Both the position numbers and the translations under genes were made by a program. Shown here one piece after another: positions 17,756 through 40,453 of a DNA stretch of 64,000 nt. Source of the DNA: Parapedobacter koreensis. Its GTDB lineage: Bacteria > Bacteroidota > Bacteroidia > Sphingobacteriales > Sphingobacteriaceae. The stretch lies in assembly GCF_900109365.1 (NCBI RefSeq), contig NZ_FNZR01000004.1, positions 310,001 through 374,000 of the forward strand, in the 5' to 3' direction. Under the pieces are notes generated by a model that saw nothing but the letters and a program-made list of their open reading frames with translations, searched no databases and was not told where the DNA came from. How positions within the stretch are numbered: position 1 is the stretch's first letter; every line of letters begins with the position of its first letter.

Positions 17756-18643
17756 CTAAACCCCAACGGCGACCTTGCTGTACAAATACCTTTTTTTGTA
17801 CTCCAGCGGCGTCATATCCGTCACCTTCTTGAAATGCCTGTAAAAATTGGAAACGTTGTTAAATCCACATTCAAAACAAACGATTTCGGTGGGCAAAATA
17901 TCCTCTACCAATAGCCGGCATGCATGGCTAATGCGTATTTCAATAAGGAAATCATAATACGTCTTCTTGGTCATCAGCTTGAAATACCGGCAAAAGGAGG
18001 TGACACTCAAGTTGGCAATTGACGCAATTTCTTCTAAGCTGATTTCCTTTTTATAGTTGCTTAAGGTGTATGTGCAGACTTTATTGATGCGCACGGCATC
18101 CATTTCATTGGATTTGTAAAAGGCATGCGCGGAGGCAATCGATACATATTCTTCCGATTCAGCGATGGTTTTGAGGATAGACAGGAGAATAATGAGCCGT
18201 TCCATATCGGTAGCTACCGTTGCCTTGTGCATCAGGTCGATCAGCCTGACCCGGCTCCTCCCGCTAAATTTCATTCCTTTCCGGGCTTTCTCAAACAGTT
18301 TCGGTACCAGGTACGTTTCCGGTAAGTTGAGGAAATCCCTACCAAAGCAGTCGGGAAGGAAATGGATCACAATTGCCTCCACTTTCCTGTCCGGATGGTT
18401 TTGGTAGTATTCCTCGTTGCACTGCCACATATGTGGCAGGTTGCTGCCCAACAGCAACACTTCGCCTTCCGAAAAGTTGCCGATATTATCACCGATGAAC
18501 CGCACGCCTTTACCCCGGATGACATGGTGGAGCTCCAATTCCGGGTGATAATGCCACAGTGATCCGAAGTTTGCCTGGACATCATGCCGTGCACTGAATG
18601 ACGATTGGATTTGCGTCGGTACTTTGTGGAAAAGTGGCTTCAT
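17756..18643 (-). CDS. AraC-family transcriptional regulator of the carbohydrate locus
   Basis: 295-aa regulator. The N-terminal cupin sugar-sensing domain (about 20-110) has HYHPELELHHVIRGKG and EGEVLLLGSNLPHMW. The C-terminal double helix-turn-helix (about 185-290) has ISLEEIASIANLSVTSFCRYFK and the second-HTH signature CFECGFNNVSNFYRHFKKVTDMTPLEYKK. It is divergent from the isomerase-kinase operon across a 256-base gap, the usual geometry for a local activator. The inducer is probably a free monosaccharide of the pathway (inference). Confidence 0.93.
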   Translation of the reverse strand: MKPLFHKVPTQIQSSFSARHDVQANFGSLWHYHPELELHHVIRGKGVRFIGDNIGNFSEGEVLLLGSNLPHMWQCNEEYYQNHPDRKVEAIVIHFLPDCFGRDFLNLPETYLVPKLFEKARKGMKFSGRSRVRLIDLMHKATVATDMERLIILLSILKTIAESEEYVSIASAHAFYKSNEMDAVRINKVCTYTLSNYKKEISLEEIASIANLSVTSFCRYFKLMTKKTYYDFLIEIRISHACRLLVEDILPTEIVCFECGFNNVSNFYRHFKKVTDMTPLEYKKRYLYSKVAVGV

Positions 18644-18899
18644 ATCTCATAATCGTTGTTTTCCATTTCCCTGGTGCCGGGAAAAAGAACGGTTTATAAC
18701 CTTTGTGTTTCAGCAGGGGATGTATCATCACCCTATCCTGTGTACTAAATTATGGAATAGAAATCCGATTTCCAAAGAAATGACAAGATCGTACAATAAG
18801 AGGGCAATAAATTCCAATAATCCCCGGTGCTTTCGCTACACTTTTGTACGGTGCTGATTCCGTATAGCGGGCATCAACTTTTGATAAACCAATTTGACC
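18644..18899. promoter_or_regulatory. Divergent control region, AraC regulator / isomerase operon
   Basis: This 256-base gap holds no gene. At 18836-18850 is the 15-mer CTACACTTTTGTACG, which recurs at 45086-45100 ahead of the DUF3748 gene. The two copies lie 49 and 44 bases from their start codons. Its CACTTTTG core is one mismatch from the -7 consensus. A second GTAC element (GTACAATAAG) is at 18791. These are candidate promoter and AraC-operator elements; no binding data. Confidence 0.4.
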
Positions 18900-20525
18900 A
18901 TGGATAAAACCAATAAAAAAGAAGTCTGGCTTGTCGCAAGCGGCGATTTGCGACTGGCGGCAAATCAACTGTGCTGGAAGGCACAGGAAACCATGGAGGC
19001 GCAATTGAGCGCGGCCATTGAGCGGCAGGGATGGCGCCTGAAACGGGCACATGGCTACCATACCGAAAAGCAGCATGGTTTTATCGATTCTCAGCGGATG
19101 GGCATCGATGTATTCAAGGCCGTCCCTCCCGATGTCCCGCTGATTGTTGCCGAGAGCGTGTGGCAATACACACACCATGTATTGGCAGGGCTTACTACAC
19201 ATCGTGGGCCCATCCTCACCGTGGCCAATTGGAGTGGACAATGGCCCGGACTGGTCGGTATGCTCAACCTCAATGGGTCGCTTACCAAAGCAGGTGTGGC
19301 TTACAGCACACTATGGAGTAACGATTTTACCGATGATTTTTTCGATCAAGGTCTTGCCGAATGGCTGGAAAAAGGAATGATCAAGCATGATCTCCGACAT
19401 GTAATGCCCTTCGATTTGGTGAAGATCCCCAAGGCAGATGAGCAGGTCGGCCGATCGTTCGCCCAACGAATGCGTCGTGGAAAAGCAATTATGGGCGTTT
19501 TTGACGAGGGCTGCATGGGTATGTATAATGCCATTGTCCCCGACGATCTGCTTCATGCTATCGGTATATTCAAAGAACGGCTCAGCCAATCGGCCCTCTA
19601 CGCCCGTATGCGTACCGTAGGTAACGCCGAGGCGGAGACCGTGCTGCAATGGTTGCTCGACAAGGGCATGACATTCAATTGGGGCAATGATGAAGGTACC
19701 GAACTCACCCGAAGGCAAACGCTTGAACAATGCAAGATGTATGTTGCCGCTGTTCGCATCGCCGCCGAGTTTGGGTGCGATACCATCGGTATCCAATACC
19801 AGCAAGGCTTGAAGGACCTGACCGTAGCAAGTGATCTGGTTGAAGGCTTACTCAATAATCAAGAGCGCCCGCCCGTCTATTCCGAGGACGGCATCGAATA
19901 CTTTGCCGGAGAGGCGATACCCCATTTCAATGAAGTGGATGAATGCGCAGGTATCGATGCGTTGGTAACTTACCACCTGTGGAAGGAACTAGGCATGAAT
20001 GGTGCGAATACGCTGCACGATATCCGCTGGGGCGAGTACTACAAAGGTGGCGACATTGACGATTTTGTATGGGTGTTCCTCATCTCGGGTGCGGTGCCTG
20101 CCGCCCACTTTGCGGGTGGGTATGCTTCCGCGAGCAGCTGGCGGCAATCGCCCATGTATTTCCGGTTGGGCGGGGGAACACTGCGCGGTATCAGCAGACC
20201 GGGCCCAATCGTATGGAGCCGTATTTATGTGCGAGAAGGAGCGTTGCTGGCGGATCTTGGCGTGGGAAGGGTCGTGAACTTACCCGAAGCAGAAACGCAG
20301 CGGCGATGGCAGGCTACATCACCCGAGTGGCCCATCATGCATGCCGTGCTTGATGGCGTGGGTCGTGACCAGCTCATGGCACGCCATCAAGCCAACCACA
20401 TCCATGTGGTATATGCGACTGATGAGCCAGCGGCGCATCGCGCGTGCCGCATCAAGGCCGCAGCGTTGGACGAACTGGGTATCAAGGTACATTTCTGTGG
20501 TAACGTGAAAATCTCCGGGCAATGA
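18900..20525 (+). CDS. L-fucose/D-arabinose isomerase-family protein
   Basis: Cytoplasmic aldose-ketose isomerase of the fucose isomerase superfamily, 541 aa. It has the N-terminal Rossmann-like domains (WLVASGDLRL; VANWSGQWPGLVGMLNL), the central active-site region with candidate metal ligands (GVFDEGCMGMYNAIVPDD, about 197-214; GNDEGTEL) and a C-terminal beta-barrel domain (FRLGGGTLRGISRPGPIVWSR). FucI-type enzymes also convert D-arabinose to D-ribulose. The ATG at 18900 is preferred over a TTG 6 bases upstream. It overlaps the downstream ribulokinase by 4 bases, so its ketose product is almost certainly that kinase's substrate. Confidence 0.75.
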   Translation: MDKTNKKEVWLVASGDLRLAANQLCWKAQETMEAQLSAAIERQGWRLKRAHGYHTEKQHGFIDSQRMGIDVFKAVPPDVPLIVAESVWQYTHHVLAGLTTHRGPILTVANWSGQWPGLVGMLNLNGSLTKAGVAYSTLWSNDFTDDFFDQGLAEWLEKGMIKHDLRHVMPFDLVKIPKADEQVGRSFAQRMRRGKAIMGVFDEGCMGMYNAIVPDDLLHAIGIFKERLSQSALYARMRTVGNAEAETVLQWLLDKGMTFNWGNDEGTELTRRQTLEQCKMYVAAVRIAAEFGCDTIGIQYQQGLKDLTVASDLVEGLLNNQERPPVYSEDGIEYFAGEAIPHFNEVDECAGIDALVTYHLWKELGMNGANTLHDIRWGEYYKGGDIDDFVWVFLISGAVPAAHFAGGYASASSWRQSPMYFRLGGGTLRGISRPGPIVWSRIYVREGALLADLGVGRVVNLPEAETQRRWQATSPEWPIMHAVLDGVGRDQLMARHQANHIHVVYATDEPAAHRACRIKAAALDELGIKVHFCGNVKISGQ

Positions 20526-22153
20526 AAGCGGGAGAAAACGTTGTGATGGGCCTGGATTTCGGTACGGATTCCGTACGCGCGCTACTGGTGGATGCGGCTA
20601 CCGGTGACGAATTGGCGAGTGCTGTGCGGATGTACCCCCGGTGGAGTGAGGGTCTTTACTGCGATAGCGGGCGATCGCAGTTCCGACAGCATCCGCTGGA
20701 CCACATCGAAGCGATGGAAGCTGTCATCCGCGAGGTGCTTTCCGGAATTTCAGCCGATACGGTGAGCCGGATCAAGGGATTATCCGTGGATACTACAGGG
20801 TCTACGCCCGCCGCCGTGGATAGCCATGGCACGCCACTCGCTCTACTTCCCGAATTTGCGGACAATCCCAATGCCATGTTTGTGCTGTGGAAAGACCATA
20901 CGGCCATTGCCGAAGCGGAAGAGATCAATCAGCTCGCCCACAGTTGGGAAACAGATTATACCAAGTATTCCGGGGGTAGCTATTCCTCCGAATGGTTTTG
21001 GGCCAAGATGCTCCATATCCTCCGTGCCGATCCAGCCGTAGCCGAAAGCGCCTATTCCTGGTTGGAACATTGTGACTGGATTCCCCATATGCTCTGTGGC
21101 CATCGTGATGTGCTATCGATGCAGCGTAGCCGCTGCGCTGCAGGCCATAAGGCCATGTGGCATGAAGTATTTGGGGGCCTTCCTGCTGAAGCTTTCCTGA
21201 CGGCATTAGATCCAAGGCTTACCGGCATCCGTAATCGCCTGTACGACCAAACCCACACATCGGATACGGCTATCGGCACACTATCCCCCGAATGGGCAGA
21301 TCGGACAGGATTGCCTGAAAGCCTGGTCATCGGCATAGGGGCGCTAGATGCACACATGGGCGCTGTAGGCGCTGCTATTAAGCCCTATTCATTAGTGAAA
21401 GTCATCGGTACGTCCACCTGCGACATATTGGTGGCGCCGACCGCTAGGCACCGTGGCCAGTTTGTAGATGGAATTTGCGGACAAGTCGACGGTTCTGTTA
21501 TTCCCGGCATGCTCGGGTTTGAAGCCGGGCAGTCCGCTTTTGGCGACCTATACCAGTGGTTTGCCCGTTTGGTGACTTATCAGCAGGAACAGCATGCGAT
21601 TATCGGTCGCATTCTGGAGGCATTGAATCAGGAAGCCGCAGCTTTGCCGATCACGGAGACCGACGAGGTAGCACTCGATTGGGTAAACGGAAGGCGTACG
21701 CCAGACGTCAATCCCGCATTGAACGGTTGGCTCACAGGCATCCGGTTGGGCACGGATGCACCAAGGCTATTCAAGGCGCTGGTAGAAGCTACGGCGTTTG
21801 GCTCGAAAGCCATCGTGGATCGCTTTGAAAAGGAAGGCGTCCCTGTCAACGAAATCATTGCCACCGGAGGCATTGCCAAAAAATCGCCCTATGTGATGCA
21901 AGTGCTGGCAGATGTGTTAGGTCGGCCTATTAAGACGGTGAATACCGAGCAGTCTTGTGCGCTGGGATCAGCGATGTGCGCTGCGGTAGCGGCTGGCTTA
22001 TACCCGACGGTCAATGCGGCGCAGGAGGCCATGTCTTCCGGATTTGATCGGGAATATCGGCCGCATCCCGACCGTATTGGCATATACGAAATACTGTATC
22101 AACGGTATCAGGCATTGGGCGCGCTGCAAGCTTCTATTTTAAATGACCGCTGA
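20522..22153 (+). CDS. araB: Ribulokinase (FGGY carbohydrate kinase)
   Basis: 543-aa FGGY-family kinase that closely follows E. coli AraB. It starts with GLDFGTDSVRALLVD and continues with VDTTGSTPAAVD, FADNPNAMFVLWKDHTA, YSSEWFWAKMLH, RCAAGHKAMWHE, LDAHMGAVGA, VIGTSTCDILVA and GICGQVDGSVIPG. The FGGY ATP-side signature ATGGIAKKSPYVMQVLADVLG is near the C-terminus. AraB phosphorylates both L- and D-ribulose, so enantiomer is not fixed. No AraA, AraD or xylulose kinase is nearby, arguing against an ordinary L-arabinose operon. Its start codon overlaps the isomerase stop (ATGA). Confidence 0.92.
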   Translation: MKAGENVVMGLDFGTDSVRALLVDAATGDELASAVRMYPRWSEGLYCDSGRSQFRQHPLDHIEAMEAVIREVLSGISADTVSRIKGLSVDTTGSTPAAVDSHGTPLALLPEFADNPNAMFVLWKDHTAIAEAEEINQLAHSWETDYTKYSGGSYSSEWFWAKMLHILRADPAVAESAYSWLEHCDWIPHMLCGHRDVLSMQRSRCAAGHKAMWHEVFGGLPAEAFLTALDPRLTGIRNRLYDQTHTSDTAIGTLSPEWADRTGLPESLVIGIGALDAHMGAVGAAIKPYSLVKVIGTSTCDILVAPTARHRGQFVDGICGQVDGSVIPGMLGFEAGQSAFGDLYQWFARLVTYQQEQHAIIGRILEALNQEAAALPITETDEVALDWVNGRRTPDVNPALNGWLTGIRLGTDAPRLFKALVEATAFGSKAIVDRFEKEGVPVNEIIATGGIAKKSPYVMQVLADVLGRPIKTVNTEQSCALGSAMCAAVAAGLYPTVNAAQEAMSSGFDREYRPHPDRIGIYEILYQRYQALGALQASILNDR

Positions 22154-22255: not shown

Positions 22256-22294
22256 GAGGTATCAATTATAAGTTAGACAATTACCCTGATATCA

Positions 22295-23224
22295 ATGAGC
22301 AAAAAGAACAAAGGATTTATTCCTGTTATGTTGACTCCCTTCAATGCGGACGGAACAATAGATTATGATGGATTAACCAGGTTAACCGAACTGTACCTCC
22401 ACGCGGGTGCATCAGGCCTGTTTGCCAATTGCCTTTCCAGTGAAATGTTTGAACTGCATGACGAAGAACGACTGGCGGTGACCAGGCATGTCGTAGCGGT
22501 GGCAGATGGAGCAGTCCCTGTGGTAGCAACGGCTACATTCGGGGGAACCGTCCAACAACAATCCGATTTTGTAAAACGCATGTACGACACGGGCATTGAG
22601 GCGGCCATCGTGATTACCAATATGTTGGCGGACGAGTACGAACCGAACGAACTGTTTGAGGAAAACGTTTTCCAATTATTGGATGCCACACCTGGGATTC
22701 CGCTGGGTTTTTATGAATGCCCCGATCCGTTCAAGCGGGTGCTTGCTGCGGAGCAGCTAAAGCGGTTTGTGGATACCGGAAGGGTAATTTATCACAAGGA
22801 CACGTGTTTGGATATCGATCTGGTGAAAGCAAAACTGGCGGTGACCGAAGACGTTCCCTCCTTTGGTCTATATGATGCTTACATGGTACATGCCGTGGAG
22901 TCGCTGAAAGCTGGATCAGCCGGACTCTCTTGCATCCAAGGGAATTATTACCCGGAATTGGTCGTATGGTTGTGTGACAACTATGACAACGCCGACCTGG
23001 CCGAAGAAGTAGCGCGTGTCCAACAGTTTTTCATCGACAACATGGACGTCATGCATACGGTTTATCCGCTGGTAGCAAAATATTTTTTACAGCAGCGTGG
23101 CCTCCCGATATCCACATTTACAAGGCGGGATGTCGGCATGTTTGATGACGAGGTTAAAGCCCAGGTGGACGCATTATATGCGCGGTATCTCGAATACCTC
23201 AGTGTGCTGAACGTAATAAAATAG
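22295..23224 (+). CDS. DHDPS/N-acetylneuraminate lyase-family pyruvate aldolase
   Basis: Class I aldolase TIM barrel, 309 aa. The Schiff-base Lys is in VIYHKDTCLD (about 168) and the catalytic Tyr in LGFYECPDPF (about 145). These enzymes form an enamine with pyruvate and make or cleave 2-keto acids. The usual carboxylate loop G-[ST]-[ST]-G-E is replaced by NCLSSE (about 47-52), pointing to a non-canonical subgroup. Neither NanE nor a ManNAc kinase is present, so N-acetylneuraminate is an unlikely substrate. Kdo, giving pyruvate plus D-arabinose, fits the neighbouring isomerase and kinase (inference). Confidence 0.85.
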   Translation: MSKKNKGFIPVMLTPFNADGTIDYDGLTRLTELYLHAGASGLFANCLSSEMFELHDEERLAVTRHVVAVADGAVPVVATATFGGTVQQQSDFVKRMYDTGIEAAIVITNMLADEYEPNELFEENVFQLLDATPGIPLGFYECPDPFKRVLAAEQLKRFVDTGRVIYHKDTCLDIDLVKAKLAVTEDVPSFGLYDAYMVHAVESLKAGSAGLSCIQGNYYPELVVWLCDNYDNADLAEEVARVQQFFIDNMDVMHTVYPLVAKYFLQQRGLPISTFTRRDVGMFDDEVKAQVDALYARYLEYLSVLNVIK

Positions 23225-23310: not shown

Positions 23311-24870
23311 ATGAATAATCTTCCAGTATTGGACCTTGCTGTCATTTTCATATACCTGCTTGCGATGGTATTTGTGGGTGTATGGTTTTCCCGAAGAAAC
23401 AAAAGTGCCGATCAGTTTACCAAAGCTTCGGGAATGATTCCCGGCTGGGCGGTGGGCATTTCCTTGTATGCGACGTTCCTGAGTAGCAATACGTTTCTTG
23501 GCGTTCCGGGCAAAGCATTTGGCAGCAATTGGAATTCGTTTGTGTTTAGTTTGTCGATGCCATTAGCAGCGTGGATTTCGGTGAAGTATTTTGTGCCTTT
23601 TTACAGAACGTTTGGGGGGATATCGGCCTATAGCAACCTGGAAGAGCGGTTTGGCCCATGGGCAAGGACGTATTCCGTTTTTTGTTTCTTGCTAATCCAA
23701 ATCGCACGGATGGGATCCATTTTCTTCGGCATAGCGCTCAGCCTTCAGGCACTCACGGGATATAGCATGATCAGCATCATGTTGGTCATGGGTATCTGTA
23801 TCGTGATTTACACCGTGATGGGGGGGATGGAAGCCGTGATATGGACCGAAGTCGTCCAAGGCGTACTCAAAACGTTTGGTGGACTGCTCATTCTGTATCT
23901 CGTTGTCCAAAACATTGATGGGGGCATTGGAAAAATCGCGGATATTGCGATACGCGATGATAAATTCAGTTTGGGGAGTTTTGACCTGAATTTTACGGAA
24001 CCCACATTTTGGGTCATATTTCTATATGGCCTATTCATGAACCTGAAAGCCTTTGGCTTCGACCAAAACTATGTTCAGCGCTACCATACGGCTAGTTCGC
24101 TCAAAGAAGCTGGAAAATCAGTCTGGCTTTGCATCAAGCTTTATGTCCCGATATCACTGGTTTTTTTCATCATCGGGACAGCGCTGTATGCCTACTACGA
24201 TCAGCACCCCGCACTCGCGGAAGCCATCAAAATACAGGCAGCGGCCGATAGGTTGCCGCTTGGCGCTAATACTGCCGAAATCGAACAGTTGGCTAAGACC
24301 TTGGGACCCGAGGACTATGGCGACAAGGTGATGCCACACTTCATGGTTCAGATGATTCCTGCCGGATTATTGGGGCTGATCATTTCGGCAATTTTAGCGG
24401 CAGCGATGAGCACCATCAGCTCCAGCATGAACGCCTCGGCGACAGTCTTTATTGAAGACATCTACAAGCGGTATTTCAGTCCGGGTATGGATGACAAGAA
24501 AAAGTTGCGGTTATTATTTATCGGGACTGCTTTTTTTGGCCTTTTGGGAATGTTTGCTGGCGTGGCGATGATTGGGGTCAAAAGTATCCTGGATACGTGG
24601 TGGGAGCTTTCAGGGATTTTTGCCGGTGGAATGTTCGGACTTTTTCTGCTCAGTATTATCAGCAAAAAGACGGGAAATAATCAAGCATTGGTGGCTGTGA
24701 TTGCCGGGATATTGGTCATTTTATGGATGACTTTTTCGTATTTGATCCCTGATCAATATGCCTTCTTAAGAAATACATTACATGCCAACATGGTGATTGT
24801 GGTGGGAACGCTGGTGATTTTTCTGACCGGTGTTTTGCTCACGTTTCTGAAAAGGCGGATAGCCGGATAA
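23311..24870 (+). CDS. Sodium:solute symporter (SSS family)
   Basis: Inner-membrane Na+-coupled transporter, 519 aa. About 13 hydrophobic segments are visible, beginning LDLAVIFIYLLAMVFVGVWFS. The early SSS motif GMIPGWAVGISLYATFLSSNTFLG is present, and the sodium-site region AILAAAMSTISSSMNASATVFIEDIYKRY lies near residues 353-390. The family carries sugars, sialic acids, myo-inositol and other solutes. Lying between the aldolase and susC, it probably imports the monosaccharide released in the periplasm. TACATTCG shortly before the ATG is a near-match to a -7 box. Confidence 0.92.
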   Translation: MNNLPVLDLAVIFIYLLAMVFVGVWFSRRNKSADQFTKASGMIPGWAVGISLYATFLSSNTFLGVPGKAFGSNWNSFVFSLSMPLAAWISVKYFVPFYRTFGGISAYSNLEERFGPWARTYSVFCFLLIQIARMGSIFFGIALSLQALTGYSMISIMLVMGICIVIYTVMGGMEAVIWTEVVQGVLKTFGGLLILYLVVQNIDGGIGKIADIAIRDDKFSLGSFDLNFTEPTFWVIFLYGLFMNLKAFGFDQNYVQRYHTASSLKEAGKSVWLCIKLYVPISLVFFIIGTALYAYYDQHPALAEAIKIQAAADRLPLGANTAEIEQLAKTLGPEDYGDKVMPHFMVQMIPAGLLGLIISAILAAAMSTISSSMNASATVFIEDIYKRYFSPGMDDKKKLRLLFIGTAFFGLLGMFAGVAMIGVKSILDTWWELSGIFAGGMFGLFLLSIISKKTGNNQALVAVIAGILVILWMTFSYLIPDQYAFLRNTLHANMVIVVGTLVIFLTGVLLTFLKRRIAG

Positions 24871-28000: not shown

Positions 28001-28046
28001 TCCGATAGTTAAGATATATTCTTTTGGCCTCAACGTAAATTTTTAA
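25041..28046 (+). CDS. susC: SusC-family TonB-dependent outer-membrane glycan transporter
   Basis: 1001-aa TonB-linked transporter that imports oligosaccharides through the outer membrane. The signal peptide ends near QQARAQ. A carboxypeptidase-regulatory-like domain follows (about 25-100, ITVTGRVIDSLTGEALGGATV). Next come the TonB-box region and plug (DEVVVVGYGTTKEVNLTGSV...; VLKDAASAAIYGSRAANGVILV) and a 22-stranded barrel ending in the aromatic-rich IYSFGLNVNF. It is followed after 10 bases by susD. The cargo is the glycan processed by the downstream beta-propeller enzymes. Confidence 0.97.
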   Translation: MRKQLTNYLVVFCALIWVQQARAQITVTGRVIDSLTGEALGGATVSLLQSSLSTTTNETGNYSISVPVGNSTLAISYIGYQSTTVEVGNRTTVDVVLVKADAALDEVVVVGYGTTKEVNLTGSVSVVNNKDINWKQVGQTSMALQGVAPGVTITQGSGQPGNDAGTIRIRGLGTLGAAGQDPLVLVDGVEMGLNNIDPNDIETISVLKDAASAAIYGSRAANGVILVTTKRARSNKIAVNYNTYAGWQKPTNLPKLVSGLDHMLLLNEANQNVNQSPTFQESYIEAYRENAPSDLYPNTDWQTLTLTSSGFMHNHSLDISGGSDFIKVRASFNHLNQGGLIPNTGYRRSSLRVNTDLKASDKLGFKLDIRGNDAFVFEPGIAPAHIFFLMNGRIPANQEGLLSDGRYGQGWLGENPMAAANASGRSDERTYSAIINLQADWKPIDGMNINVMYSPEVSSGMNKLFRKTYQTFYGDGRLAYSYPAINSLTQTNPFNRQDNFRVLLDYARGVQQHNFKVLGGFELIDSYAESFNARRENFVLQDYPVLNAGSRENQQANGAGGTEYGLMSFFGRLNYDYAEKILFEANLRYDGSSRFAKGNRFGLFPSFSAGWRLSEEPFLQDVDIIDNLKVRASWGQLGNQNIGDYPFVSAVDLSQSYIFNESAVQAAALTQLGNNLISWETTEMLNVGLDATLFNKLSLTAEYYVRNTKDILLELPIPGAVGLGAPYQNAGKVRNKGWDISLNHFNTIGDFNYNVRLTLSDVKNEIVDLEGTGPYISGSTIRMEGYPIDAFFGYQSQGLFQTAEEVAAHAALSSGASAPGDIKYVDQNGDHVINADDRVVLGSNIPRYTYSADLTASFKGFDLNVFLQGVGKVEGYLQGSGVWAFDTGGTAYMHHLDRWTPENPNASYPRLTFGLTNNYQHSDYWMINGAYLRVKNIQLGYTLPQRILGNGFIKNFRITASGQNLLTFDNFLDGFDVEIPRGSIERYPIVKIYSFGLNVNF

Positions 28047-32102: not shown

Positions 32103-33503
32103 ATGAAAAATAACCAACATGAAAGTAATACGTTTGACGTCATTGTTTGCGGGGGTGGTCCTTCCGGGGTGGCGGCTGCGCTTTCAGCAGCAAGACGTGG
32201 AGCGAAAACGCTTCTTGTGGAGCGCTATGGATTTTGCGGTGGGATGGCCACCGCCGCCTTAGTAAATCCTTGGTGCGGGCACGAATTTACTGACCAGGCA
32301 ACGGGTAGAAATGGCGCAATCATTGGCGGTGTTTTTAAGGAAGTGGTTTCGGCGATGCATGAAAAAGGAGGATACGGTTCGGAATTGTCTCCGGCGGCGT
32401 TTGACGATGAATTGCTGAAGCACGTATATGACACGATGTTGCTGGAGGCAGGTGTAGTCCTCCGGTACCATTCCTTTTTGAAAGCCGTCCATATGCGTGG
32501 CGATACCATCACCTCCATTGACGTGTTTTCGAAAGGAGGGGGCGAAACGCTGTTTGCAAAGCAATTTATCGATTGTTCGGGCGATGCGGATTTAGCAGCG
32601 ATGGCAGGCATGCCCTTTGATGTTGGCCGGCCCGAAGATGGCTTAACGCAGGCGATGACCGTAAGTTTCAGGATGGCCAATGTAGACAAGGCCGACATGT
32701 TGGCTACGCGCAACCTACGGAAAGCGCGGGCACTTGTTGAACCTTATTTTCAACAAGCACTTGCCGACGGCAGCCTTTACTATCCTTATCGCCCGTTTGT
32801 GCATTTCTACGATTATCCCCGACCGGGGATACTCCATTTCAACATGACGCGTATCAATGAAGTTTCCGGATTGTCAGCCATTGATTTGACGAAGGCCGAA
32901 ATTGAAGGGCGGCGCCAGGCCTATGTAATAGGGGAGTGGCTCATCAAGAACGTGCCCTGGTTTAAGCATGCCTTCGTGGAAAAGGTGGCCTGTCAGGTAG
33001 GCGTGCGGGAGACCCGTCATATCCATGGCCTTTATAAGCTAACACAGGACGATATTGTAAATGCCACAAAGTTCAGCGATGGGATTGCCCGGTCACGGTA
33101 TTTCATTGACATCCATAATCCGAAAGGTGCTCACGATGTACAGCAGAAGCCCGGTGAACAAGGGGCTGTACGCAGAGATTTTGGTCCGCCGGAAGGGGAT
33201 TATTACGAAGTACCGTTTCGCTCCCTGATAACGGAAAACTTCCCCAACTTGATTGTCGCATGCCGTGGATTGTCAGCCACACACGAAGCCTCCGCTGCGG
33301 TACGGGTGATGGCCACGATGCATGCCATTGGCGAAGCAGCGGGCATTGCCGGGGCAACGGCCGCTCGGGAGGATAAACGTGTGCAGGATATCGATGGGAA
33401 GTGGTTGAGGCACCAAATTCCTTTTATGCAGGAGCCACCTGATTTTGGTGCGCTTTGGAAAGCCGCCAATGGATATCCATGGACATTGATCGCTTCGGTC
33501 TGA
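32103..33503 (+). CDS. FAD-dependent oxidoreductase (FAD_oxidored family)
   Basis: 466-aa flavoprotein without signal peptide, so cytoplasmic. The dinucleotide-binding motif GGGPSGVAAALSAARRGAKTLLVE begins near residue 16, followed by the FCGGMAT motif. The second FAD block QFIDCSGDADLAAMAGMPF is near 153-171 and the C-terminal flavin contact CRGLSATHEASAAVRVMATMHAIGEAAG is near 408-435. This family occurs in many Bacteroidota polysaccharide loci but has no settled activity. Oxidation or reduction of a sugar hydroxyl or sugar acid is the usual guess. Confidence 0.75.
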   Translation: MKNNQHESNTFDVIVCGGGPSGVAAALSAARRGAKTLLVERYGFCGGMATAALVNPWCGHEFTDQATGRNGAIIGGVFKEVVSAMHEKGGYGSELSPAAFDDELLKHVYDTMLLEAGVVLRYHSFLKAVHMRGDTITSIDVFSKGGGETLFAKQFIDCSGDADLAAMAGMPFDVGRPEDGLTQAMTVSFRMANVDKADMLATRNLRKARALVEPYFQQALADGSLYYPYRPFVHFYDYPRPGILHFNMTRINEVSGLSAIDLTKAEIEGRRQAYVIGEWLIKNVPWFKHAFVEKVACQVGVRETRHIHGLYKLTQDDIVNATKFSDGIARSRYFIDIHNPKGAHDVQQKPGEQGAVRRDFGPPEGDYYEVPFRSLITENFPNLIVACRGLSATHEASAAVRVMATMHAIGEAAGIAGATAAREDKRVQDIDGKWLRHQIPFMQEPPDFGALWKAANGYPWTLIASV

Positions 33504-33521
33504 AAGAAGAAGATTTTGAGG

Positions 33522-36344
33522 ATGAAAAGGATGATTTTTTTCTTTATTGCGCTATTCGTATCGGCTTCGGCACATGGACGGCCGGAGCCCACGCTTAGTC
33601 GCACCGGTATTATCTTGGACACCGACGCAAATAATGAATTGGATGACCAGCATGCGCTTGCCTATCTGCTTTTAAATACCCAAGCGTTCAATGTGCTTGG
33701 TGTCACGGTGAATGCTACACATGGGGGCGGTGCCATCGAACGGCACTATGACGAAGCATACCGGGTATTGCAATTATGTGGGGCGGAGCAGCAAACACCG
33801 CTTTTAAAAGGGGCTAATGCTGACTTTGTAAGTATCCTGCCCATGATTGGAAAGGATTCGTATGATGGGAAGGAAGCGGTGGAATTCATTATCAACAAAG
33901 CTAAGCAGGCGACTACCGCAGACAAACTGACCATCATTGCCGTTGGGAAACTTACAAATATTGCGTTAGCGCTGAAAAGCGATCCAGCGGTTGCTTCAAA
34001 CATGAGGGTCGTTTGGCTTGGGGGAAATTATCCCCAAGAGGGTGAGTATAATTTAAAGGCGGATACAGCTGCATTGAATTATGTGCTGAAAAATACCGTT
34101 GAGTTTGAGATGGTAACCGTGCGGTACGGTAAGGACTCCGGATCGGATGCAGTACGGATTAAACAAGCTACCATTCAATCGGAGATGCCAGGTAAAGGGC
34201 CAACGGTACCATTTGATGTTATTGGTCGGCATGGGGGCAAATTTAGGACCTTTGGGGATTATTCGGTGAGTTTATTTGAGCACATCAGTTATAAGGATAA
34301 ACAGCGAACAAGGGCATTATTTGACGTAGTGCCCCTTGCCATCGTAAAAAATCCAACATGGGGGAAAAGCCGTTTGATACCAAGTCCGTTATATATTGAT
34401 GGCCAATGGGTCGAACAGGCGCACAGCAACAGGTATATCACACTTTGGGAACATTTCGATGGTGAGGCGATTGTGCAAGATTTTTTATCGTGCTTCCAGC
34501 ATGCAGCTCCGGCAACCGACGGCTTTTTGGCGGACAGATGGAGCTTCGAAGATACCGCAATCCCCTTGGCCAACAGCGCCCGTACGCAGCGCGACACCAG
34601 TAAAGGGATTCAAAAACGGGGCGATATTTCTTTTTCCGACGGCTTAGCTGAATTAGCTGCCGGGACAGGGCGGGATGATGCGCTTGAGGGACGAAGTGGT
34701 GCAATCAACCAGAAAGAATTTACTGTTTGGATGAGACTCAAGCTTTCCAGCGATTCGCTATCTCCTACTGGCCAGGATGGAAAGTCTGAATTTCTCCAAG
34801 TAGGAGGCATAAAACTGTATTATCTTACGGATAAGGGAGCGGGGAAAGGCACGTTTTATGGTTTGGATGGCAATCTGGTAGCCAAGGAGCGATTGGTGGA
34901 GCTATCACCTCCGGCCAAAATAAACATCGACTTTGATTCCTGGATTCAAGTGGCATTGACCAAGAAAAATGAACAGGGATTCGATAACTATCGGGTTTAT
35001 TGCCGCATAGAGAATGCAAATAAAAATCTGGTAAACTGGGTTTATTTGGGGCATTTACAAGGGCTTGCGGGGGATAATGGTGATGGGTTAGCGATAGGTA
35101 ACTTATCCACGGAATACCCACTGACACGCGGGCTCCTTATCGACGAATTGCGCTGTTACGAAAGGTGCCTGAACGATCAGGAATTGTTGGATATATGGCC
35201 TTCCCTCACCGGGTTCGGTAGCTATCCTGAAAAGCCCTATGGTACGATTATCGATTACAGCCCTGCGAAGACTGGCCGGTATATCGCCGGTTCGCCATCT
35301 ATTGCCGTATTGGATGATGGTAGCTACTTGGCGAAAGGGGATGATTATGGGCCGGCGGTGGGTGTCAGTGAGCTTGCCCGGATCTATAAATCAGTGGACA
35401 ACGGTGCATCATGGAAACCAATCAGTGAAGTTGAAGGGATTACGTGGGCAACACTTTTTACCCACCGTGGGGCGGTCTACCTAATAGGAACCAGCGCAGG
35501 CCACGGTTTGGGGCATGCCATTATCATGAAGTCAAATGACGGTGGAGTCACTTGGACACAGCCGATAGATGCCGACAATGGACTGCTTTTTTCAGACCTT
35601 TCTTACCATACGGCACCAGTCCCCGTCATTATCCATAACGGCAGAATATGGCGCGCCATGGAGGATGAAAAAGGAGAAGGCGGTTGGGGTAAAAATTTCA
35701 GGGCCTTGATGCTGAGTGCTCCTGTTGATGCAGACTTAATGAAGGCCTCGAATTGGACGGTTTCTGAGCCATTGGGCTATAATGCTCAATGGTTAGATCG
35801 GCAGTTCAACGGTTGGCTGGAAGGAAATGCCGTGGTTTCACCCCAAGGCAACATCGTCAATATGTTGCGGGTAAGCATGACCCAGGGTGGTGGAAAAGCG
35901 GCCATTATCAGATATGATGCATACGGGAAGAAGCCGAACTTCGATCCTCAGCAAGATTTTATCGATTTTCCCGGCGGAAGTACCAAATTTCATGTCTTGT
36001 TTGATTCAGTTTCGAATAGATATTGGGCACTGTCCAATGCCGTGTTAAAAAAACATGAAAATGAGCGTCATACGCAAGGGATGATCAGAAACACACTCGT
36101 GCTTATGTGTTCTGCCGACTTAGCACATTGGGAGATCATTGATACCGTTTTGTACCATCCAGATGTGGCCAAACATGGCTTTCAGTATCCGGCTTTTGCA
36201 GTTGATGGTGAAGATATTGTACTGGTTTCAAGGACAGCTTATCACGATGACTTTGGAGGGGCATTTAGGCAGCACGATGTTAACTACTTCACTTTCCATC
36301 GCATAAGACAATTTAGAAAGTTACTGCCAAGAAAGGAGGAATAG
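33522..36344 (+). CDS. Secreted nucleoside hydrolase-like / LamG-like / sialidase-fold fusion
   Basis: Large 940-aa exported protein. A Sec signal (MKRMIFFFIALFVSASAHG) precedes an inosine-uridine nucleoside hydrolase-like domain (about 25-330) with a calcium-binding acidic cluster D33-x-D35 ... D41-D42. That cluster has a two-residue insertion relative to classical IUNH enzymes. A LamG/concanavalin-like beta-sandwich follows (about 345-560, ending LLIDELRCYERCL). A propeller with Asp-box turns (SVDNGASW, SNDGGVTW) occupies about 565-900. IUNH domains break N-glycosidic bonds of ribosides, and an exported copy fused to a propeller is unusual. Start set at ATG 33522 rather than TTG 33516. Confidence 0.7.
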   Translation: MKRMIFFFIALFVSASAHGRPEPTLSRTGIILDTDANNELDDQHALAYLLLNTQAFNVLGVTVNATHGGGAIERHYDEAYRVLQLCGAEQQTPLLKGANADFVSILPMIGKDSYDGKEAVEFIINKAKQATTADKLTIIAVGKLTNIALALKSDPAVASNMRVVWLGGNYPQEGEYNLKADTAALNYVLKNTVEFEMVTVRYGKDSGSDAVRIKQATIQSEMPGKGPTVPFDVIGRHGGKFRTFGDYSVSLFEHISYKDKQRTRALFDVVPLAIVKNPTWGKSRLIPSPLYIDGQWVEQAHSNRYITLWEHFDGEAIVQDFLSCFQHAAPATDGFLADRWSFEDTAIPLANSARTQRDTSKGIQKRGDISFSDGLAELAAGTGRDDALEGRSGAINQKEFTVWMRLKLSSDSLSPTGQDGKSEFLQVGGIKLYYLTDKGAGKGTFYGLDGNLVAKERLVELSPPAKINIDFDSWIQVALTKKNEQGFDNYRVYCRIENANKNLVNWVYLGHLQGLAGDNGDGLAIGNLSTEYPLTRGLLIDELRCYERCLNDQELLDIWPSLTGFGSYPEKPYGTIIDYSPAKTGRYIAGSPSIAVLDDGSYLAKGDDYGPAVGVSELARIYKSVDNGASWKPISEVEGITWATLFTHRGAVYLIGTSAGHGLGHAIIMKSNDGGVTWTQPIDADNGLLFSDLSYHTAPVPVIIHNGRIWRAMEDEKGEGGWGKNFRALMLSAPVDADLMKASNWTVSEPLGYNAQWLDRQFNGWLEGNAVVSPQGNIVNMLRVSMTQGGGKAAIIRYDAYGKKPNFDPQQDFIDFPGGSTKFHVLFDSVSNRYWALSNAVLKKHENERHTQGMIRNTLVLMCSADLAHWEIIDTVLYHPDVAKHGFQYPAFAVDGEDIVLVSRTAYHDDFGGAFRQHDVNYFTFHRIRQFRKLLPRKEE

Positions 36345-36426
36345 CTGTAAAATAGCATCCAGCAATCGGGATTACCGAAATGAGCCTTATATTAGCTTGC
36401 TCAATGGGGATACAGAAAAAAATGTT

Positions 36427-37557
36427 ATGGAAAAGTTAGTAAACGCATTGCTATTAGCCCTATCCTCTTGTTGCTTAGCCTGTCAATCAATCGACAGCGG
36501 TAACATCGACAAATCCGACCTTCCAGAATTGGCCGAGCCGGGTGTGGGTGCTTATCTAAAAGGCCAGTTGGTTTATCCCTTGGACAACAAACCGACACCA
36601 CAATGCCATGCGTCCACTATCGTGGAAACACCAGAAGGGCTGGTTGCTGCGTTTTTTGCAGGTACGGAGGAAGGGGATCCCGATGTCGGTATTTGGATTT
36701 CGCGCTTGGTGGACAGTACGTGGATGCGGCCTATAGCAGTTGTGGATGGCGTGGTCAATGACACGTTGCGGTATCCGTGCTGGAATCCGGTTTTGTTCCA
36801 TCCCGATGGTGGAGACCTGATGCTCTTTTATAAGGTTGGCCCCAGTCCGCAGACTTGGTGGGGAATGCTGATGACTTCGGTTGATAATGGTGAAACGTGG
36901 TCTGCACCGAGAAAGCTGGGTGAGGATCCAAAAATCGGGCATCTACTGGGGCCAATAAAAAATAAACCCATACAGCTTGGCAACGGCACCATCATCAGCC
37001 CAACCAGTATTGAATATCCGAAGGGTGACGGTGAAGACCAGGATTGGCGCGTCTATTTCGAAGTCAGCAGGGACTTGGGACAGACATGGGAAGTCGTTGG
37101 CCCCATCAATGATGGTGTCGAATTTGACGCTATCCAGCCGAGCGTGCTGACGTATCCCGACGGGAGGTTACAGGTAATTTGCCGCACACGGCAGGATGTA
37201 TTGGCCGAAAGCTGGTCAGAAGATAATGGCCATACGTGGAGCAAGATGATAGCGATGCCGCTGCCCAACCCAAATTCCGGCACGGATGCGGTGACCTTAA
37301 AAGATGGACGTCAACTGCTGGTTTATAATCATTCCACGAGGAAAGGCGAGGAGCCGAAAGGACGTAATGTACTGAACCTGGCCCTATCGGATGATGGAAA
37401 GGACTGGAAGCCAATAATGACATTGGAAAACGAACCCATTGAAGATGGCTATGCTTATCCGGCTGTTATTCAATCGTCAGATGGTTTGGTGCATATCACT
37501 TACACTTACAACAGGCGATCGGTAAAATACGTGGTCGTCGATCCGGAGGCTATGTAA
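36427..37557 (+). CDS. BNR_2-type sialidase-fold lipoprotein
   Basis: 376-aa exported lipoprotein (signal LALSSCCLACQS with lipobox Cys). Sialidase-superfamily propeller of the BNR_2 subtype: CHASTIVETPEGLVAAFFAGTEEGDPDVGIWISR, YPCWNPVLFH, DNGETWS, RDLGQTWE, EDNGHTWSK and GYAYPAVIQSSDGLVHITYTYNRRSVKYV. It is clearly a different subfamily from the tandem pair at 29.7-32.1 kb, so the locus carries two kinds of exo-acting propeller plus the fusion protein. BNR_2 proteins are often labelled exo-alpha-sialidase without biochemical proof. Confidence 0.72.
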   Translation: MEKLVNALLLALSSCCLACQSIDSGNIDKSDLPELAEPGVGAYLKGQLVYPLDNKPTPQCHASTIVETPEGLVAAFFAGTEEGDPDVGIWISRLVDSTWMRPIAVVDGVVNDTLRYPCWNPVLFHPDGGDLMLFYKVGPSPQTWWGMLMTSVDNGETWSAPRKLGEDPKIGHLLGPIKNKPIQLGNGTIISPTSIEYPKGDGEDQDWRVYFEVSRDLGQTWEVVGPINDGVEFDAIQPSVLTYPDGRLQVICRTRQDVLAESWSEDNGHTWSKMIAMPLPNPNSGTDAVTLKDGRQLLVYNHSTRKGEEPKGRNVLNLALSDDGKDWKPIMTLENEPIEDGYAYPAVIQSSDGLVHITYTYNRRSVKYVVVDPEAM

Positions 37558-37590
37558 AAATACCTACTTTTGTGCTGTGAAACCAATAAC

Positions 37591-37971
37591 ATGAAAGATT
37601 ATAAAGCATATTTTATCATACCGGCTCCGCCGGAACTGGTTTTTTTGGCACTTACCACCGCGGAGACTATCCGGCTGTGGACGGGCGACGAGGCGGTAAT
37701 GGTTGCCGAGCCAGGCAGCGAGTTTTCGCTTTGGGACGGGGCGATAGTGGGCAAAAACCTGTCGTTTGAGCCCGGCAGGCAAATCGAACAGCAATGGTAT
37801 TTCGGCGAGCAGGAACAGCCTTCCATCGTGGTCATCAAACTGCACGATCATAAACACGGGACGTCAATGGAGATACGGCAAAGCAATATCCCCGATGAGG
37901 AATACGATGACCTTGTGGAGGGGTGGCGCACCGAATATGCGGGAGCGCTCATCGACTTCTATACGGAGTGA
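37591..37971 (+). CDS. START-like/SRPBCC domain protein
   Basis: 126-aa single-domain protein of the Bacteroidota START-like (SRPBCC, Aha1-related) family. Conserved blocks are YFIIPAPPELVFLALTT, TIRLWTGDEAVM, EFSLWDGAIVGKNLSFEPG, QQWYFGEQEQPSIVVIKLH and EYDDLVEGWRTEY. The fold encloses a hydrophobic ligand cavity, but the ligand is not known. The ORF reaches back to a GTG at 37570; the ATG matches family starts. It is found widely as a single-copy conserved gene, so it may be unrelated to the glycan locus. Confidence 0.85.
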   Translation: MKDYKAYFIIPAPPELVFLALTTAETIRLWTGDEAVMVAEPGSEFSLWDGAIVGKNLSFEPGRQIEQQWYFGEQEQPSIVVIKLHDHKHGTSMEIRQSNIPDEEYDDLVEGWRTEYAGALIDFYTE

Positions 37972-37999
37972 AATTTCACCACGTCTTTAACGTCAATTT

Positions 38000-39112
38000 A
38001 TGGCTCAGTATACAAATAGTGATGCAACGGGGCGCGGGCAATCACGGCAACGCCTGGTGTCGTTGGATGCCTTCCGCGGATTTACCGTGGCTGCGATGAT
38101 TATTGTGAACACGCCAGCGAGCTGGAATCACGTGTTTCCACCATTGCTGCATGCGACTTGGCATGGGATTACACCTACGGACTGTGTTTTCCCGTTTTTC
38201 ATTTTTATTGTGGGGATCGCCATCACCTTGTCCTACGACAAGCTTAAGGCAACAGGGGCCTCCACGAAACAAGTGGTATGGAAAACCCTTAAGCGCGCTT
38301 CCGTCATTTTTCTCTTAGGCATATTTTTAGGCTTGTTTCCCGAGTTCAATTTTTCCGAAATCCGCGTTGCTGGTGTGCTGCAACGCATCGCGCTTGTGTT
38401 TTTGGCATGTGCGTTCTTGTTTTGGTACACCAACTGGAAACAGCAGGCGCTGATTGGCGCCGTTGTGCTGGTGGTTTATTGGATGGCGATGGTGTGCATT
38501 CCGGTTCCGGGTGTAGGAATGGGCTTGCTGGAGCCGGGTAAAAACCTTGCCGCCTGGGTGGATAATATGCTAATGCCCGGCAGGATGTGGCAGGGCACAT
38601 GGGATCCGGAAGGCCTGCTTAGCACGCTTCCAGCCGTAGCAACCGGGATTTCGGGCATGTTAATCGGCAGGCTTATCGCGAATCCCAATGTATCAAGAGA
38701 ACAAAAGGTGGCTTGGATGTATTTGCTGGGATTATCAGCTTTTGTCCTGGGCTCGGTATGGGGGTGGGTTTTTCCGATCAACAAAAACTTATGGACAAGC
38801 CCGTATGTCCTCTATACGTCCGGATTGGCTTCCATGGTATTGGCTTCGTTATTTTTTGTTATTGAAGTATTAGGCGTGAAAAAATGGGCGACTGTTGGCG
38901 TGATCTTCGGGAGTAACGCCATCGTGGCCTATGTGCTGGGAAGTATCATACCCAGTGTGCTTGCACCATTGAATAACTGGTATGTTATGAACGTGGTGGA
39001 AGGTAGGAACTGGGCTGAATTGGCATCACTGCTGTGGGCCGTAGGGGTATGCTTCTTGTGCTATATTCCCATTTACCTGCTTTACCGGAAAAAAATATTC
39101 GTCAGAATTTAA
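38000..39112 (+). CDS. Heparan-glucosaminide N-acetyltransferase-like membrane protein (DUF5009/NagX type)
   Basis: 370-aa polytopic inner-membrane protein, about ten helices. Family signatures are RLVSLDAFRGFTVAAMIIVNTPASW with the candidate catalytic His in HATWHGITPTDCVFPFFIFIVG, then RIALVFLACAFLF and GTWDPEGLLSTLPAVATGISGML. Relatives include eukaryotic HGSNAT, which moves acetyl groups across a membrane onto amino sugars, and NagX of Bacteroidota GlcNAc loci. It may acetylate a sugar or help its uptake. An acetyl esterase gene follows after 24 bases. Confidence 0.8.
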   Translation: MAQYTNSDATGRGQSRQRLVSLDAFRGFTVAAMIIVNTPASWNHVFPPLLHATWHGITPTDCVFPFFIFIVGIAITLSYDKLKATGASTKQVVWKTLKRASVIFLLGIFLGLFPEFNFSEIRVAGVLQRIALVFLACAFLFWYTNWKQQALIGAVVLVVYWMAMVCIPVPGVGMGLLEPGKNLAAWVDNMLMPGRMWQGTWDPEGLLSTLPAVATGISGMLIGRLIANPNVSREQKVAWMYLLGLSAFVLGSVWGWVFPINKNLWTSPYVLYTSGLASMVLASLFFVIEVLGVKKWATVGVIFGSNAIVAYVLGSIIPSVLAPLNNWYVMNVVEGRNWAELASLLWAVGVCFLCYIPIYLLYRKKIFVRI

Positions 39113-39136
39113 TAACTTACGAAACCTTATAAACTT

Positions 39137-40453
39137 ATGAACAGATTATCCCTTATCCGTGCCTTCGCGTTGGCTTATGGTCTGCTCTTGCTATCCGTCC
39201 AGATCACCACTGCCCAAACCCGATCCAATCAACTTATCCAAGTGGTGGTATCGCCGGAAAAGCCCGATTGGACATATGCAGTGGGAGAGGAAATAAATTT
39301 TTTCGTGACGGTGCTCCGGCATCAGGCTTTGATGGAAAATGCCGAGGTGACCTACACCATCAGTTTGGAAAAAATGGCTCCGTTGCAATCGGGTAAGGTC
39401 CCGCTGAAGATTGGCACCGCCGTGGTGGGCAAGACGTTGAAACTTGATGAACCGGGTTTCTTGCGCTGTGAGGCACGCATCACCGTGGACGGCGTGGAAT
39501 ACCGGGGTATTGGTACGGCGGCTGTAGCGCCGGAAAGCGTACAGCCTACGCAGCAGTTGCCCGATGATTTCTGGGAGTTTTGGAATGGCGCAAAAGCCGA
39601 AGCGGCCAAGGTGCCCTTGGATGCCAAGCTGACGCTGCTTCCTGAGCGGTGCACGGAGAAGGCCGATGTATACCAGGTAAACATGCAAAACTATGAAACG
39701 GGTGCCCGCCTTTACGGCATATTGGCCAAGCCCAAGATAGCTGGAAAGTACCCGGCAGTCCTGCAGGTGCCCGGTGCGGGCATCCGGCCATATGCAGGCA
39801 TTGTGGATTTGGCCGAGAAAGGCATCATTACACTGCAAATCGGCATCCATGGGATTCCGGTCACCTACGAAACAGGCTTATATGACGATCTGCGTGCAGC
39901 TCCTTTGAAAAACTACCAGTTTTTCAATATGGACGATCGGGACCAGTACTACTATAAGCGGGTATACTTGGGCTGTGTACGGGCGATTGATTACCTCTAT
40001 TCGTTACCTGAATTTGATGGCCAGACGCTGGCGGTATGGGGTGGAAGCCAAGGCGGGGCATTGTCCATTGTCACCGCGGCGCTGGACGATCGGGTAGACT
40101 ACCTCGTGTCGTTGTATCCGGCACTGTGTGATTTAACCGGTTATTTACATGGCCGTGCCGGCGGCTGGCCCCACATGTTCAACGAGGCAAATGCGCCGTT
40201 CATGGCCAAAGAGGAAAAAATCAAGGTGTCCGCCTATTACGATGTGGTTAATTTTGCCCGTAACGTAAAGATACCCGGTTTTTATACCTGGGGGTACAAC
40301 GACGAAACCTGCCCGCCTACGTCCTTTTACACGGCTTACAACCAAATAGGTGCACCGAAGGAGTTGTTTCTCGTGCAGGAAACCGGCCATTGGACATTCC
40401 CGGAGCAGCAGGCGAAAATTCAGGAATGGCTGCTGGCGAAGCTGAAGCCATAG
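39137..40453 (+). CDS. Acetyl xylan esterase-like enzyme (CE7, alpha/beta hydrolase)
   Basis: 438-aa exported alpha/beta hydrolase with a Sec signal (LLLSVQITTAQT), an N-terminal beta-sandwich (about 30-135, VVSPEKPDWTYAVGEEI) and a catalytic CE7 domain (AXE1 / cephalosporin-C deacetylase). The nucleophile Ser is in WGGSQGGALS, the acid Asp in WGYNDETCPPTS and the His in ETGHWTFPEQQ. It removes acetyl groups from sugars or oligosaccharides. Last gene of the plus-strand carbohydrate run, convergent with the GT2 gene. Confidence 0.88.
   Translation: MNRLSLIRAFALAYGLLLLSVQITTAQTRSNQLIQVVVSPEKPDWTYAVGEEINFFVTVLRHQALMENAEVTYTISLEKMAPLQSGKVPLKIGTAVVGKTLKLDEPGFLRCEARITVDGVEYRGIGTAAVAPESVQPTQQLPDDFWEFWNGAKAEAAKVPLDAKLTLLPERCTEKADVYQVNMQNYETGARLYGILAKPKIAGKYPAVLQVPGAGIRPYAGIVDLAEKGIITLQIGIHGIPVTYETGLYDDLRAAPLKNYQFFNMDDRDQYYYKRVYLGCVRAIDYLYSLPEFDGQTLAVWGGSQGGALSIVTAALDDRVDYLVSLYPALCDLTGYLHGRAGGWPHMFNEANAPFMAKEEKIKVSAYYDVVNFARNVKIPGFYTWGYNDETCPPTSFYTAYNQIGAPKELFLVQETGHWTFPEQQAKIQEWLLAKLKP

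Follow-up and report, generated by a model that had tools for sequence, protein, structure and literature searches.

What does a polysaccharide-utilisation locus consume when it encodes sialidase-fold proteins and a sialic acid lyase-like aldolase beside a fucose isomerase-like protein and a ribulokinase? The locus that raises this question occupies positions 17756 to 40453 of a 64,000-nucleotide stretch of the 5.55 Mb genome of Parapedobacter koreensis (contig NZ_FNZR01000004.1, positions 310,001 to 374,000; hereafter the window), and an original prediction, made by inspecting this DNA alone, held that it frees Kdo (3-deoxy-D-manno-octulosonate) and feeds it to D-ribulose-5-phosphate. We consider a polysaccharide-utilisation locus with a built-in Kdo catabolic module, running from Kdo to D-ribulose-5-phosphate, to be the best available reading and a fairly probable one. 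In this pathway, surface proteins (SusC and SusD, a sialidase-fold lipoprotein at 36397-37557, and an esterase) would free Kdo, a symporter would import it, a class I aldolase would split it into pyruvate and D-arabinose, a FucI-type isomerase would convert D-arabinose to D-ribulose, and an AraB-like kinase would yield D-ribulose-5-phosphate, which could enter the pentose phosphate pathway without AraD. We infer all of these substrates, as well as the identity of the Kdo-releasing enzyme. The genes of the locus, with their best family matches, are:

17756-18643, reverse strand: AraC-family regulator (HTH_18, 67 bits)
18894-20525, forward strand: FucI-type aldose isomerase, proposed D-arabinose isomerase (Fucose_iso_C, 35.5 bits, cut-off 29.3)
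20522-22153, forward strand: AraB-like kinase, proposed D-ribulokinase (NF003154, 730 bits, cut-off 428)
22295-23224, forward strand: DHDPS/NAL-superfamily aldolase, proposed Kdo aldolase (PF00701, 89.7 bits, cut-off 22.1)
23311-24870, forward strand: sodium:solute symporter (SSF), proposed Kdo importer (TIGR00813, 231 bits)
25041-28046, forward strand: SusC-like TonB-dependent transporter (TIGR04056, 943 bits)
28057-29730, forward strand: SusD-like lipoprotein (PF07980, 172 bits)
29746-30909, forward strand: BNR_2 propeller protein, tandem copy 1 (PF13088, 64.9 bits)
30906-32087, forward strand: BNR_2 propeller protein, tandem copy 2 (PF13088, 71.4 bits)
32103-33503, forward strand: FAD-dependent oxidoreductase, FAD_oxidored (PF12831, 385 bits)
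33516-36344, forward strand: IUNH domain (residues 32-280) fused to a C-terminal propeller (residues 560-939) (PF01156 IU_nuc_hydro, 92.4 bits)
36397-37557, forward strand: sialidase-fold lipoprotein, candidate Kdo-releasing enzyme (PF13088, BNR_2, 296 bits)
37570-37971, forward strand: AHSA1-domain protein (PF08327, 62 bits; an 87% identical gene in locus L033 of a relative)
38000-39112, forward strand: NagX/HGSNAT-like membrane acetyltransferase (NF046061, 228 bits of the 480 required; HGSNAT_cat, 31 bits, cut-off 22)
39137-40453, forward strand: CE7-type acetyl esterase (AXE1, 147 bits; a 77% identical gene in locus L041)

The AraC gene is divergent from the fourteen genes that follow, which begin with the isomerase, end with the CE7 esterase and lie on the forward strand (18894-40453) with gaps of only -4 to 170 bases between neighbours, so that they are likely to form one operon; the isomerase probably starts at an ATG two codons inside the open frame listed. 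The gene identities originally proposed were all borne out by these matches: the AraC regulator, the fucose-isomerase-family protein, the AraB-like ribulokinase (which also scores 634 bits against a cut-off of 583 with TIGR01234), the DHDPS/NAL-type aldolase, the symporter with SusC and SusD, the two tandem sialidase-fold proteins, the FAD enzyme, the BNR_2 lipoprotein, the HGSNAT-like protein and the CE7 esterase. The proposed IUNH-propeller fusion was recovered too, its C-terminal BNR_2 match being weak (24.5 bits, below the cut-off of 31.4). The AHSA1 gene and a DUF3748 gene farther downstream are additions to the original list.

The catabolic genes keep company in relatives. Across 300 genomes of the order, with presence scored at E 1e-50 for the aldolase and E 1e-80 for the isomerase, 123 carry the aldolase and 95 the isomerase; 94 have both, 29 the aldolase alone and 176 neither (Fisher p 2e-50, uncorrected for kinship). 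The isomerase occurs by itself in a single genome (G043, 1 of 95), where it is in two pieces. The two genes start within 6 kb of each other in 81 of the 94 double-positive genomes, 13-31 kb apart in 6, and farther apart or on different contigs in 7. We compared gene neighbourhoods in two sets of loci (numbered L; genomes are numbered G) that share some organisms and cannot count as independent: the best 80 of at least 586 loci, and 40 loci chosen across genera from the 123 aldolase genomes. Near the aldolase, the symporter is found in 69/80 and 36/40 loci, the AraC gene in 57/80 and 30/40, and the isomerase in 37/80 and 21/40. Aldolase, symporter, regulator and isomerase form a linked module.

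The aldolase belongs to the DHDPS family, and no equivalog model reaches its cut-off; against the models for N-acetylneuraminate lyase (NAL) it scores 30 bits of the 382 required by TIGR00683 and 44 of the 281 required by NF003164, and it does not qualify as a NAL equivalog. Its nearest solved relatives are YagE, the best match, labelled as a probable 2-keto-3-deoxy-galactonate aldolase, and DHDPS. Residues S48, E50, Y140, K168, T170 and D194 are invariant among 22 aligned sequences, and the pocket contains one serine present in 22/22 sequences and a second present in 21. K168 and Y140 align with a lysine and a tyrosine of YagE, and we take them to be the Schiff-base lysine and the active-site tyrosine. 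The gene probably encodes a class I pyruvate aldolase; that the aldehyde it releases would pass to a FucI-type isomerase and a ribulokinase points to Kdo, which splits into pyruvate and D-arabinose. NALs themselves form Kdo from D-arabinose and pyruvate in the reverse direction, at 1-1.5% of the rate with N-acetylmannosamine (PMC4016182).

The isomerase has a C-terminal Pfam match above the cut-off and an N-terminal one below it. Sequence searches of solved structures (PDB), with the single protein and with a profile, gave no match at E 0.01, and we therefore turned to fold prediction. The predicted model (mean confidence, pLDDT, 88.6) matches the D-arabinose isomerase 3a9r at 7.0e-22 in Foldseek, with a TM score of about 0.5 across the whole chain, and aligns with Escherichia coli FucI (1fui) at Z 36.2 over 336 residues (180-541 of 543; root-mean-square deviation, rmsd, 2.5); the N-terminal third lies outside this alignment, the fold match beginning at about residue 177. 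L-fucose/D-arabinose isomerases score Z 34.0-36.2 (3a9r, 35.4), compared with 28.5-31.4 for L-arabinose isomerases. The canonical domain Fucose_iso_N2 (PF07882) has no match in the P. koreensis genome. By its predicted model, the protein is a divergent branch of the FucI fold rather than a canonical FucI, with a proposed specificity for D-arabinose. Conservation in all of 21 aligned sequences makes E347, D376 and H502 candidate metal ligands.

The kinase is the only AraB match in its genome at E 1e-80. AraA (PF02610) has 0 matches in the whole genome (5 of 14 control genomes are positive), and no stand-alone AraD or FucA was found there, the sole PF00596 match lying within a 710-codon frame. 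Since AraA and a stand-alone AraD/FucA are missing and AraB is single, a product that needs no epimerase fits. The absence of AraA, originally asserted from the window, extends to the genome, as does that of a stand-alone AraD, and an L-arabinose operon, which an araA/araD set elsewhere in the genome would have indicated, is rejected. In a tree of AraB proteins, the genes that adjoin the isomerase fall on one side of a branch with support of 100/100, apart from 15 other AraB genes; 2 of these 15 were checked downstream and are followed by an AraD-type gene and then AraA, as in araB-araD-araA operons. Within the 80- and 40-locus sets, the kinase appears in 12 entries (11 distinct, L192 being the same as L055), always together with the isomerase. 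None of these 12 has two or more of the RG-II-type genes (rhamnogalacturonan II; here GH95, GH28, GH137, GH78, DUF3826 and one type of GH2, GH denoting glycoside hydrolase families), and one of them, L041, carries a GH2 of a different type. Conversely, 59 entries have at least two RG-II-type genes and none of these has an AraB kinase in the stretch read. RG-II degraders may use the AraB of their arabinose operon, with organisms that lack such an operon carrying a kinase of their own.

Kdo is the sugar acid of RG-II chain C, and in Pedobacter- and Mucilaginibacter-type relatives the aldolase and symporter, in many cases joined by the isomerase, lie within or close to RG-II loci. The recurring order in Pedobacter is GH28-GH95-GH2-symporter-aldolase-AraC-isomerase-DUF3826-SusC-SusD; in Mucilaginibacter the order opens with GH78-GH137-GH2 instead, and many of the stretches lack the isomerase. 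The GH137-like protein of these loci matches the solved entries 5mt2/5muj at 9e-130, which we take to be BT0996, presumably the carrier of GH137. Two Pedobacter-type RG-II regions were read, of 100 kb (G272) and 80 kb (G140), and Pfam scans of 16 of 60 open frames in G272 gave, among other matches, a GH141 domain, a BT_1020-like propeller (presumably GH143), CoA-transferases and an apiosidase, an enzyme that belongs to RG-II. Enzymes of the GH137, GH141 and GH143 group are associated with RG-II (PMC7922503). Among 40 aldolase-positive genomes (39 random plus P. koreensis), 25 have GH137, versus 9 of 40 random aldolase-negative genomes (p 0.0006, uncorrected for kinship); the distance from GH137 to the aldolase is at most 70 kb in 21 of the 25 and at most 10 kb in 10. 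Kdo and 3-deoxy-D-lyxo-heptulosarate (Dha) are constituents of RG-II chains C and D, the former of which ends in rhamnose (PMC12282258). Relatives of the lipoprotein at 36397-37557 (51-53% identity) adjoin a GH78-like gene in G272 and lie one gene from one in G140, the GH78 labels there resting on 32-34% BLAST identity to Pfam-verified GH78; a rhamnosidase and a sialidase-fold enzyme are the pair that a rhamnose-Kdo chain would need.

What weighs against this reading touches both of its halves. The lipoprotein at 36397-37557 has a predicted six-bladed sialidase fold (pLDDT 84.6; Z 37.0 to sialidases over 312-317 residues, rmsd 2.5, identity 16-19%). As candidates for the three-arginine carboxylate clamp of GH33 sialidases, R263 aligns with the arginine of an LRT motif and R323 and R373 are invariant, while H71 stands about where the arginine of a RIP motif is expected, the N-terminal part being outside the HMMER alignments. 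In the HMMER alignment, its Q247, invariant in 11 aligned sequences, occupies the glutamate column of anhydrosialidase, which we take to be that of the catalytic partner of the tyrosine nucleophile. Because of this glutamine, we class the modelled protein as sialidase-like and not as a typical GH33 enzyme. The two tandem BNR_2 proteins share 67% identity over residues 40-392. They were considered as a conserved Kdo-releasing unit and then discarded, since at E 1e-30 copy 2 has relatives in just 2 of 300 genomes, P. koreensis and G206, and the G206 copy is on a different contig from the aldolase. The best solved relative of copy 2, Dfer_1899, is labelled uncharacterized. The IUNH gene was likewise dismissed as a conserved partner of the module, as relatives' loci share its C-terminal propeller alone (39-49% identity), and a search of the pooled loci of relatives with the FAD oxidoreductase gave no match at E 1e-20. 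The P. koreensis genome has no GH137 at E 1e-40, and Pfam scans of the window operon gave no RG-II glycosidase domain, other RG-II families not having been searched genome-wide. Of the Kdo interpretation, the catabolic part is the better supported, on co-occurrence, fold, the missing araA and araD, the separate kinase branch and the RG-II loci of relatives; the depolymerising part is not supported for this locus, with a nearly private tandem pair, an IUNH protein shared only in its propeller and no GH137 match. RG-II, lipopolysaccharide, algal wall or capsule could each be the source of Kdo here.

The catabolic half has its own difficulties. At E 1e-80, 29 of the 123 aldolase genomes lack the isomerase, and a replacement by canonical FucI was rejected: it occurs in just 4 of these 29, while aldolase-negative genomes have it in 2 of 20 cases and double-positive ones in 0 of 11, and therefore does not rescue the pathway in aldolase-only genomes. 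AP_endonuc_2-type genes, present in L037, L221 and L222, are candidates for a different D-arabinose isomerase. The co-occurrence that the original prediction proposed to look for in other Bacteroidota holds for aldolase and isomerase within the order (94 of 95) and is rare outside it: among 395 genomes of the phylum, 16 have the isomerase, 9 the aldolase and 4 both, the 12 with only the isomerase belonging to other classes and the 5 with only the aldolase to the same class as P. koreensis. In other classes, the isomerase has a class II aldolase beside it and a sulfatase-like gene at a distance of two genes in L211, and in L206 its neighbours are genes of an ABC transporter and of a distant FGGY kinase; these contexts would fit a general enzyme for L-fucose/D-arabinose-type sugars. 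FucI enzymes accept L-fucose and D-arabinose alike, and RG-II-type loci have GH95 close to the module. Isomerase and kinase could accordingly serve L-fucose, L-galactose or D-arabinose freed by glycosidases, with the aldolase acting on an unrelated acid and nothing but a regulator in common. We think this unlikely, given that P. koreensis has no stand-alone FucA or AraD, that the kinase scores as a ribulokinase and not as a fuculokinase (TIGR02628, 44.6 bits, cut-off 470.9), that the window operon has no fucosidase domain, and that within the order the isomerase is so rarely found without the aldolase.

The aldolase could also act on another acid. Besides its resemblance to YagE, it is joined in L128 (Pedobacter) by an FAA hydrolase, an aldehyde dehydrogenase and a D-galactarate/altronate-type (GD_AH) dehydratase, as in a pentonate route, and in L223 a 40% identical paralogue adjoins a GD_AH dehydratase and an aldehyde dehydrogenase. 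The enzyme might then be an aldolase or dehydratase for 2-keto-3-deoxy-pentonates or -hexonates and belong to an oxidative sugar pathway, which strikes us as rather unlikely: such a route leaves the isomerase and kinase without a role, and apart from L128 and L223 no sugar-acid dehydratase was seen in the window operon or among the scanned neighbours in relatives' loci, many neighbours being unscanned. Cleavage of a different ulosonic acid, whether 2-keto-3-deoxy-nonulosonate (KDN), Dha or a bacterial nonulosonate, would draw on the occurrence of Dha in RG-II (PMC12282258), on the BT_1020-like propeller in the same region, and on the several aldoses that NALs of this superfamily accept (PMC4016182). 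From their chemistry, Kdo alone among Kdo, KDN and Dha gives a pentose that a FucI-type isomerase and AraB could carry to D-ribulose-5-phosphate, KDN yielding mannose and Dha a four-carbon acid, and we hold this alternative to be quite improbable.

The proposed Kdo pathway resembles several described systems in part. Kdo is found in most lipopolysaccharides, in many capsules and in RG-II. With the sialic acid (Nan) loci of Bacteroidota, the operon shares sialidase-fold proteins, SusC/SusD, a symporter and a DHDPS/NAL class I pyruvate aldolase, but a FucI-type isomerase and a ribulokinase stand in place of the amino-sugar enzymes; sialic acid catabolism was rejected because no NAL equivalog reaches its cut-off, NanE and the Nag enzymes not having been searched genome-wide. 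With RG-II loci, of the Bacteroides thetaiotaomicron type and the Pedobacter type (L234-L242), it has in common the aldolase, symporter, isomerase, AraC gene and a relative of the BNR_2 lipoprotein, differing in its lack of GH137 and RG-II glycosidases and in having its own AraB. The kinase family is that of araB-araD-araA operons, whereas AraA and a stand-alone AraD are missing and the isomerase fold is nearer to FucI than to AraA. The proposed aldolase reaction is that of Kdo aldolase (EC 4.1.2.23), for which we found no sequence to compare; a table published in 2007 gives this activity as a validated orphan with the rank 'difficult' (PMC1940265). A literature search of titles and the beginnings of abstracts, covering few subscription journals, gave no Kdo utilisation locus and no gene assigned to Kdo aldolase among the matches listed. 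If the Kdo reading is true, it supplies genes for this orphan activity and a way in which Bacteroidota that degrade plant polymers may deal with the Kdo of pectin; it also assigns a role to the divergent FucI-type isomerase and the separate ribulokinase branch, and makes the sialidase-fold family a candidate Kdo hydrolase.

The operon also lies at a site that recurs in relatives. A gyrB-like gene (15724-17682) lies directly upstream of the operon region, and relatives of it with 93-97% identity adjoin the AraC gene of the system in L033, L034, L114, L117, L230 and L231 (L034 and L117 being from the same species). Beyond this pair the gene content varies, with RG-II-like GH28-GH95 in L034, L114 and L117, BNR_2 and NagX-like genes in L033, and isomerase, kinase and symporter in L230 and L231. 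Because the same gyrB/AraC site is followed by different genes, these comparisons support one regulator-and-aldolase system with exchangeable depolymerising genes. A bolder version would make the aldolase subfamily the gene for EC 4.1.2.23 and the module a movable Kdo cassette, set in RG-II loci or, as here, in loci for bacterial Kdo polysaccharides, with the IUNH protein as a ribofuranosidase and the CE7 protein as a de-acetylase acting on a ribofuranose-Kdo capsule. Capsules of ribofuranose and Kdo exist, as does IUNH activity on O-ribosides, but in full this version is a long shot.

One gene outside the operon is probably part of the same system:

44938-46473, forward strand: DUF3748 protein, outside the operon (PF12566, 128 bits; open frame longer than in relatives)

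It is 58-64% identical to genes in nine loci of relatives, which adjoin the aldolase directly in 6 of the 9, lie one gene off in L128 and 7.4 kb off in L041; in L233, a relative of the gene adjoins the AraC, isomerase and kinase genes. By these comparisons it probably belongs to the system despite its position. Between it and the operon lie a glycosyltransferase, an ABC transporter and an M28 peptidase gene on the opposite strand. The best equivalog-type model for the symporter is NF007790, which we take to be the E. coli YidK family, and E. coli YidR is presumably a DUF3748 protein; the pairing of symporter and DUF3748 may be old.

Some neighbouring genes in relatives' loci suggest further sugar routes. 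In a Pedobacter-type RG-II region (L234:2431-8216), GH137-GH2 are followed by CoA-transferase family III and solute-binding-protein-like genes, and in Flavobacterium (L130:14390-20107) such genes come after the isomerase; they may handle a further RG-II acid, for instance aceric acid. The protein c12, considered as a new Kdo or Dha hydrolase, proved pectate-lyase-like (9buj, 1e-40). A large protein without a Pfam match near the aldolase (c8) has no solved relative at E 0.01. A protein of 725-755 amino acids without a Pfam match (L054:1412-3622) recurs near the aldolase in L033, L037, L056, L061 and L071, accompanied by metallophosphatase-like and mostly NagX-like genes. In other Parapedobacter loci (L113:542-9897), GFO/IDH, 3-keto-disaccharide hydrolase, HUMPS-family, ADH and SDR genes stand directly before the aldolase, together with TIM-barrel isomerase-like, PfkB, MFS and SGL genes, as a putative extra sugar route.

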